NCBI RefSeq assembly: GCF_004768465.1
Contig: NZ_SRMF01000002.1
Location: 411,606-475,605, forward strand
DNA from: Natronospirillum operosum
Lineage (GTDB): Bacteria > Pseudomonadota > Gammaproteobacteria > Pseudomonadales > Natronospirillaceae
DNA: 64,000 bases
Reading direction: 5' to 3'
This document shows, one piece after another, positions 1 through 60,124 of this stretch; positions within the stretch are counted from its first letter, which is position 1; each line of letters starts with the position of its first letter. The notes beneath the pieces are model-generated. The model had not been told where the DNA came from and made no database searches. It saw only the letters and a program-made list of their open reading frames with translations. A program made the translations under genes and the position numbers.

Positions 1-72
1 CATCCATGACAGCTCGACTACGGCCGTCCATGGCCGTAGACGGTCTCACAGTGCATGCACCCGGCTGGCGAC
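1..72 (+). repeat. Structured intergenic repeat, copy A (cut by window start)
   Basis: This is the right-hand part of a recurrent folded element that is also present at 221-311, 2973-3089 and 59980-60070. The conserved linker ATCCATGACAGCTCG (2-16) is followed by a perfect 8-bp hairpin, CTACGGCC (18-25) and GGCCGTAG (32-39), with loop GTCCAT. An ACG spacer and the 3' outer arm follow and run to about 72. The 5' outer arm lies outside the window. The stem bases differ from copy C but the pairing is kept. Both the linker and the loop carry TCCAT where the other copies carry TCCCT. Confidence 0.8.
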
Positions 73-89
73 TCCAACCGTGCCACCTG

Positions 90-141
90 CTGTAGGCTGT
101 GGCCCTTGCTCGCATGCGTGGCCAAGGGCCACAGCCTACAG
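90..141. repeat. Long inverted repeat (19-bp arms)
   Basis: The arms at 90-108 and 123-141 are perfect reverse complements of 19 bases (CTGTAGGCTGTGGCCCTTG), separated by 14 bases. The right arm lies in a 24-base segment, 116-139, that recurs exactly at 388-411. A 16-base part recurs in inverse orientation at 2914-2929. This is a second palindromic repeat type, with core GTGGCC-AAG-GGCCAC. It has no T-run, so it is not a standard terminator. Confidence 0.7.
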
Positions 142-220
142 ATAAGCTGCCTTCGGAGGCCAATTACGCACAGGGTGGATCCGTCTGAGCCAGGCACATG
201 CGGTGCGGCCGCCGCGCGGT

Positions 221-311
221 GGTGCCCTGACCGCAGACCGTCTGCGCACAGGGATGTGCGCAGTCGAGCTGTCAGGGACGACGTTTTTTGCGTGTCTGCG
301 GTCAGGGTACC
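221..311 (-). repeat. Structured intergenic repeat, copy B
   Basis: Read on the minus strand, this copy has an outer stem formed by 294-311 and 221-238 (17 of 18 positions complementary). A 30-base linker contains GTCCCTGACAGCTCG. The inner hairpin CTGCGCAC/GTGCGCAG has loop ATCCCT (plus-strand 242-263), and a 3-base ACG spacer precedes the closing arm. The stem sequence differs from the other copies while complementarity is preserved. It lies in the leader region upstream of prpD, inverted relative to copy A. Confidence 0.85.
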
Positions 312-387
312 CCGTAGAGGCGGCTTGGCTTATCAGTCTGGTAGTCACCCGTCAACCCATGGCGCTTAGGCCTATTCCGGGCGCGGT

Positions 388-2900: not shown

Positions 2901-3155
2901 GGTCCGACGTTTCGGCCCTTGGCCACGCATCGCCCAGATCGGTCCCTTTTTGCCTATGGTGCCAATCGGACCGTCGCCACGCCCGGGCACATGCCCTGTG
3001 AGACACGCAAAATACGTCATCCCTGACAGCTCGGTTGCGGCCGTCCCTGGCCGCAAACGGTCTCACAGGGCATGCACCCGGCAGGCGACTCTTATCGCGC
3101 CTCCCCAACGCAGGGGCCTGCGGCCCCATCGCGCACGGGGCCGAAACGTCGGACC
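2901..3155. repeat. 255-bp segment with 18-bp terminal inverted repeats
   Basis: GGTCCGACGTTTCGGCCC at 2901-2918 is the exact reverse complement of 3138-3155. Between them are structured-repeat copy C (2973-3089), an inverted piece of the 116-139 repeat (2914-2929), and the palindrome GGGGCC-TGC-GGCCCC (3113-3127). The whole sits between convergent genes and encodes no convincing protein. It resembles a nested palindrome cluster or a miniature element, but no transposase or clear target-site duplication was found. Confidence 0.6.
2973..3089 (+). repeat. Structured intergenic repeat, copy C (complete)
   Basis: This is the clearest complete copy. The outer arms 2973-3004 and 3060-3089 pair over about 28 positions with small bulges, and the innermost CATGCCCTGTGAGAC part is nearly perfect. 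The 5' linker (3005-3034) reads ACGCAAAATACGTC, then ATCCCTGACAGCTCGG. The inner hairpin is TTGCGGCC (3035-3042) with GGCCGCAA (3049-3056) and loop GTCCCT. The 3' side of the internal loop is only ACG (3057-3059). It lies between the convergent AEC carrier and FMN reductase genes. Confidence 0.85.
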
Positions 3156-59960: not shown

Positions 59961-59979
59961 TCGTCGCTGTCGATTCGGA

Positions 59980-60070
59980 CTGGGGTGGAAGGGCGGGGCG
60001 TCTGCCGCCAGGGATGGCGGCAGCCGAGCCTACAGGGATGTATTTACGGCGTCCCCGCCTTGCACCCCAG
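59980..60070 (-). repeat. Structured intergenic repeat, copy D
   Basis: Read on the minus strand, this copy has an outer stem formed by 60052-60070 and 59980-59998 (one mismatch, one bulge). The linker contains TAAATACATCCCTGTAGGCTCGG. Its inner hairpin CTGCCGCC/GGCGGCAG has loop ATCCCT (plus-strand 60002-60023), with an ACG spacer. It fills the 164-base gap between hutI and hutG, starting 20 bases after the hutI stop, so the operon transcript contains the complement of the element. Confidence 0.82.
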
Positions 60071-60124
60071 CCGGGTCGACACGGTGTTGAGTCAAATTGA
60101 CAGGAGCCACAGGCACAGGAGCAG

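Follow-up and report, generated by a model that had tools for sequence, protein, structure and literature searches.

The question raised by this locus is what a short word is doing twice in each copy of a repeat. The window, i.e., the whole stretch of 64,000 nucleotides of Natronospirillum operosum DNA that was analysed, holds four copies (A to D), in which the word reads RTCCAT at both sites in copy A and RTCCCT at both sites in copies B, C and D. In the original prediction one site was a single-stranded linker and the other an inner loop, and the two were thought to change together. Folding of an alignment of 52 copies from the same genome gave a different picture: the element, approximately 110 nt long, is a three-way junction made of a long outer stem and two hairpins, and the presumed linker and loop are the terminal loops of these two neighbouring hairpins. 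The "linker" is in fact a hexaloop on the 3-bp stem of a small hairpin (GTC/GAC or GGC/GCC). It was taken for free sequence in copy A because the window begins within that copy; the sequence upstream of the window restores the missing arm (...ACGTC-ATCCAT-GACAGCTCG...).

Copies of the repeat in the window, with the strand on which the words are read, the strand that folds into ANGGAN loops, and the positions of both loop words.
Copy	Positions	Strand	Folded strand	Hairpin 1 loop	Hairpin 2 loop	Remarks
A	1-70	+	minus	ATCCAT 2-7	GTCCAT 26-31	truncated at the window edge; complete copy at G000:C12:411570-411675
B	206-316	-	plus	GTCCCT 274-279	ATCCCT 250-255	inverted relative to copy A
C	2981-3087	+	minus	ATCCCT 3019-3024	GTCCCT 3043-3048	
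D	59974-60071	-	plus	ATCCCT 60034-60039	ATCCCT 60010-60015	second subfamily of this genome, hairpin-1 stem TAC/GTA

In the core, the conserved strand AGCTCG joins hairpin 1 to hairpin 2, and hairpin 2 is followed by the closing strand ACGGTCT. Hairpin 1 has 3-4 bp, with T-A as its middle pair in 42 of the 52 copies and G-C in the other 10, and the stem of hairpin 2 has about 8 bp. Compensatory changes were found in 16 of the 28 predicted pairs of this alignment, and the outer stem carries many of them. For copy C, the DNA fold is the same as the RNA fold, and both are lower than shuffles by about 6 standard deviations. A pairing across the junction (CGTC with GACG) was considered and dropped, since, as judged by eye, the distal strand stays the same where hairpin-1 stems switch to GGC/GCC. 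Distant copies follow the same plan with unrelated stems. Within a single genome (G041 and others, L172-L174) the outer stems differ strongly in sequence and yet pair over at least 25 bp, a sign that the copies may be old and under selection.

The repeat is neither rare nor confined to this genome. A covariance model matched 88 places in the host genome at E up to 10; 63 stretches of that genome gave 107 model matches, from which 22 weaker ones, several of them antisense to other hits, were dropped and 85 (24 bits or more) were kept, so that we count about 85 copies. Across the order, the model has matches at E up to 0.001 in 46 of 194 genomes and 27 of 97 genera, with copy numbers to be read as lower bounds, as no more than 19 candidates were scored per genome. 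When named genomes were scanned for GACACGC...RTCCNTG...GCTCG...RTCC, at least 80 loci came up in Gammaproteobacteria, including Marinobacter, Microbulbifer, Rheinheimera, Halopseudomonas, Aquisalimonas and Stenotrophomonas; among the matches listed, one is labelled Proteobacteria only. In the related draft genome G001 the ends of contigs C55, C65, C98 and C108 lie within the element core, and copy numbers from drafts are therefore probably underestimates.

We next consider which strand is kept foldable. On the strand on which the words were read (the reading strand), A.C mismatches of the outer stem outnumber G.T mismatches by 77 to 30 in 70 copies of the host genome. Elsewhere in the order (47 copies) the counts are 61 to 20 over whole arms and 48 to 5 over the first 22 bp, or 18 to 1 by genome (23 genomes), and at the named loci, among the matches listed, 49 to 5 in 81 copies, or 31 to 3 by locus. 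Both kinds of mismatch carried the same score in the alignment, and a model derived from the reading strand, as ours was, would bias the outcome in the opposite direction. Since an A.C mismatch reads as a G.U/G.T wobble on the other strand, the foldable strand is the one opposite to the reading strand. Among isolated mismatches on the reading strand in other genomes, C.T exceeds A.G (20 to 3) and C.C exceeds G.G (8 to 2); the excess is thus a general retention of G on the folded strand, beyond wobble alone. In the host genome the isolated A.C over G.T excess is weaker (19 to 5), and 9 of these A.C mismatches fall at one position common to related copies. The asymmetry amounts to 35:3 where the folded strand is sense and 32:3 where it is antisense to codirectional neighbours. 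As sense and antisense copies are equal, host transcription is ruled out as its source. In our interpretation, the strand opposite to the reading strand is under selection to fold when single-stranded, and this selection originates in the element itself. G.T wobble stabilises ssDNA as well, and the asymmetry is therefore compatible with folding as RNA or as ssDNA.

On the folded strand both loops read A-N-G-G-A-N. Loop counts were taken from a parse that required no loop letters and left 29 of 136 copies (host genome and order) and 37 of 113 (named genomes, among the matches listed) unparsed. The pattern ANGGAN was present in 61 of 62 hairpin-1 loops and 59 of 60 six-base hairpin-2 loops of the host genome, and in all loops elsewhere in the order (45/45 and 39/39). 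In named genomes, among the matches listed, the four read positions were invariant in 76 of 76 hairpin-1 loops and in at least 47 of 48 hairpin-2 loops per position, in a set whose scan pattern already fixed T-C-C of both loops. A C-G pair closes hairpins 1 and 2 in 62/62 and 59/62 copies of the host genome, 45/45 and 45/45 in the order, and 76/76 and 75/76 in named genomes, among the matches listed. The loops are 18 nt apart in 55 of 62, 36 of 45 and, among the matches listed, 62 of 76 copies of the three sets, respectively, and 17 or 19 nt apart in the remainder. Five-base loops of hairpin 2 occur in 2/62, 6/45 and, among the named matches listed, 28/76 copies. The positions that vary between copies are the two N of ANGGAN, and it is at the N of A-N-GGA that CCCT and CCAT differ.

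This anatomy resembles a known RNA site. According to the available text of PMC7652899, the loop bound by RsmE/CsrA is an ANGGAN hexaloop in which both N are variable, yet affect affinity, and CsrA bridges pairs of sites separated by 10-63 nt, the optimal spacing being greater than 18 nt. The same text gives "upstream AC and downstream GU base-pairing", for which reason the C-G closing pair was counted as a feature of the site. The element has the ANGGAN hexaloop, the C-G closing pair and two such sites 17-19 nt apart. Thus, CsrA/RsmA is a candidate partner of the loops. The suggestion that one partner reads both sites gains indirect support: each fits the ANGGAN loop of CsrA/RsmA, and across three sets of copies the two hexaloops agree in their invariant bases and in the positions that vary.

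The reading that we put first, with a probability of about one half, is that of a palindromic, REP/BIME-like dispersed repeat that is a relative of TwoAYGGAY (Rfam) and whose loops are a predicted double dock for CsrA/RsmA. Each copy would be one unit of the repeat. Its strand opposite to the reading strand is kept foldable when single-stranded, the outer stem closing a three-way junction that presents the two hexaloops A-N-G-G-A-N 17-19 nt apart; this strand may be produced by transcription, either its own or pervasive, or in an ssDNA stage. The two hexaloops may form a ready-made dock for one CsrA/RsmA dimer, with one loop per RNA-binding face, and the word common to "linker" and "loop" would be the CsrA recognition loop read backwards. 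The two loops would be free to vary independently because CCCT and CCAT differ at a base described as variable in known sites.

Some observations do not sit easily with a CsrA dock. Hairpin 2, with about 8 bp, is longer than most SELEX hairpins, which have up to 4 contiguous pairs in the available text of PMC7652899, and its loop has five bases in part of the copies. Next to the element we found neither promoter-like composition nor a U-run, and a role inside neighbouring mRNA is not indicated, placement and strand asymmetry being equal for sense and antisense copies. A CsrA gene was found in 45 of the 46 element-positive genomes, a co-occurrence that says little because nearly all genomes of the order (182 of 194) have CsrA. 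The exception is G187, a genome 88% complete, with 13 element matches and no CsrA found. Like RsmZ/CsrB-type sRNAs, the element carries ANGGAN hexaloops in neighbouring hairpins; unlike them, it consists of dispersed copies with two sites each and not of single genes, with no promoter or terminator seen. A search of the host genome for RsmZ gave none.

TwoAYGGAY (RF01731; Weinberg et al. 2010, PMC2864571) belongs to the same Rfam clan, CL00106, as PrrB_RsmZ. It shares with our element an outer stem, two hairpins with GGA hexaloops and occurrence in Gammaproteobacteria, and this architecture of two hairpins on one outer stem is present in the host copies. It exceeded the gathering cut-off of 43 bits in 16 of 194 genomes of the order, and did so at our model's own loci G107:C19, G041:C9 and G135:C7, on the opposite strand. 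The opposite strand of the distant copies L102 and L100 scored 37 and 34 bits. No match above cut-off was found in the host genome (G000) or in the window, and copy A scored 24.0 bits. The host loops are nearly all AKGGAY, of which the CCAT copies fit AYGGAY and the CCCT copies (AGGGAY) do not. The host element differs further in its repetitive nature, with about 85 copies and inverted pairs among them, and in a strand constraint independent of genes. Because they fail the cut-off, we file the host copies as a probable TwoAYGGAY-related variant with anatomy like a CsrA double site, and not as members. CsrA binding of TwoAYGGAY was predicted from its motif in the available part of PMC4333381; save for that prediction, the family is held to be of unknown function in the literature surveyed. 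Within that limited collection we found no description of TwoAYGGAY as a high-copy repeat, and no title or abstract reporting a link of CsrA to repeats. The high-copy relatives described here, with a known constrained strand, make the CsrA prediction directly testable.

A second relative, Ysr224 (RF02770), gave at best 40.3 bits in the host genome against a gathering cut-off of 70, and exceeded it in 0 of 194 genomes. The 3' half of its model corresponds to hairpin 1 (AUCCAU), GGCUCG, hairpin 2 (AUCCCU) and ACGCU on the forward strand; it is thus annotated on the strand other than the folded one, and this description of the other strand of a similar structure counts against a CsrA dock. In Yersinia, the available parts of PMC9029176 and PMC12112432 describe Ysr224 as a multi-copy, expressed sRNA. 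At L139 (copy A, 1776-1913), Ysr224 forward and TwoAYGGAY in reverse both match a single element, each below its cut-off.

A tentative alternative, which we consider possible though rather on the unlikely side, is that the fold is an ssDNA mobility structure of REPIN type, in which ANGGAN is the motif of a transposase or nuclease and not of CsrA, and the two members of an inverted pair mark the ends of a composite unit. It agrees with the high copy number, with the scattered intergenic sites and with a fold constraint independent of gene direction, as well as with the arrangement of copies: as in REP dimers, adjacent copies (500 bp or less) are mostly inverted, +- in 46 of 53 pairs and -+ in 2 (named pairs among the matches listed). 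These pairs comprise 19 +-, 2 -- and 1 ++ in the host genome, 10 +- in the order and, among the named matches listed, 17 +-, 2 -+ and 2 --. One further -+ pair, in G135 (C2:50978 and 51158), comes from the whole-genome list and lies outside this count; the rare -+ exceptions are L228, L271 and G135:C2:50978-51268. According to the available text of Di Nocera et al. 2013 (PMC3733652), REP/BIME/REPIN elements are likewise of high copy number, intergenic and rare between divergent genes, and REP/BIME dimers prefer an inverted arrangement. REP, however, are hairpins of 20-40 bp with a GTAG or CGTC tag, whereas our element is a three-way junction of about 110 nt, and loops of REP CGTC families have 4-5 bases in place of six. 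By eye, the folded strand of many copies does have CGTC at the base of the hairpin-2 stem; a CGTC-tagged REP family was rejected, as the published families have a different loop size, a different start of the stem and a different tail. The Y1_Tnp gene (PF01797), which has one match in the host genome, was not found in 12 of the 46 element-positive genomes, among them G041, G078, G135, G157, G174 and G182 with at least 11-18 element matches each. This argues against mobility driven by such a transposase, as do outer stems that differ and still pair, and a loop pattern that equals a known RNA site base for base.

The mobility reading also draws on a smaller repeat nested in the loops of the element. 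This second repeat (TATCAGGCCC...TTTTG; L335-L347, e.g., G000:C1:60182, C12:364413 and C27:110501) spans about 70-80 nt and has a GTCCCT loop of its own. It lies within the hairpin-1 or hairpin-2 loop region in 13 of 15 genomic places; where it is intact, its right edge stands directly before TCCCT or, in one case, before TCCAT. The remaining 2 places are elsewhere, in coding-looking sequence. Another shared palindrome (GTAGGCTGTGGCCCTTG...) occurs between and beside copies in the window (90-141, 383-402 and 2914-2933), and spacers of element pairs in the host genome share palindrome modules.

Returning to the CsrA/RsmA dock, a wider reading is more speculative, and we regard it as doubtful: each gammaproteobacterial genome concerned would contain dozens of inverted-pair repeats, every copy a predicted double CsrA/RsmA clamp. 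With one-strand folding selected regardless of genes, the repeat would act by way of its own RNA or of a single-stranded stage. All copies together may serve as a CsrA reservoir for the whole genome, or the repeat may be a mobile element that makes use of CsrA, and TwoAYGGAY and Ysr224 would be opposite strands of one element. If CsrA does bind, tens of sites per genome would alter the accounting of free CsrA, now ascribed to a few sRNAs.

It is improbable that the repeat is a cis-regulatory or 3'-UTR RNA element of adjacent genes, although "Cis-reg" is the Rfam type of TwoAYGGAY. By our gene calls (ORF and hexamer calls, uncurated), elements lie mostly between convergent or codirectional genes, and gaps between divergent genes make up 1/60, 1/38 and 6/69 of occupied gaps (the last among the matches listed), which places most elements within possible reach of 3' read-through. 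On the other hand, single copies between codirectional genes show no strand preference (39 sense vs 38 antisense), and the strand asymmetry is equal in both. Single copies should not be taken as cis-regulators of the adjacent gene.

We finally tabulated the two words across copies, with a main parse blind to loop words that gave 60 of the 85 host copies with both hairpins and six-base loops. Their word pairs were 27 CCCT/CCCT, 7 CCCT/CCAT, 14 CCAT/CCCT, 9 CCAT/CCAT and 3 other, with no significant excess of matched pairs (Fisher p=0.145), so that the co-change seen in all four window copies was not confirmed beyond the window. A second parse (65 of 85 copies, 20 dropped) gave 30/8/14/9 and 4 other (p=0.15). 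The variable base was equal in 16 of 39 copies from other genomes of the order (13.8 expected) and in 22 of 48 from named gammaproteobacteria, among the matches listed (22.5 expected). The three sets pooled, the named set again among the matches listed, had the same base in 74 of 147 copies against 67.7 expected (stratified permutation p=0.14), which leaves room for a weak excess. That one of linker and loop was copied from the other, and that conversion or joint selection holds them equal, is very improbable: the four matched window copies and the slight pooled excess speak for it, but neither the pooled nor the host-genome p-value, nor the named set, lends it significance, and mixed pairs, which the original prediction had itself named as counter-evidence, are common (21 of 57 two-word host copies). 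Co-change of the two words is not supported; within the error of the data the loops vary independently, and the matched words in the four window copies are an ordinary coincidence.
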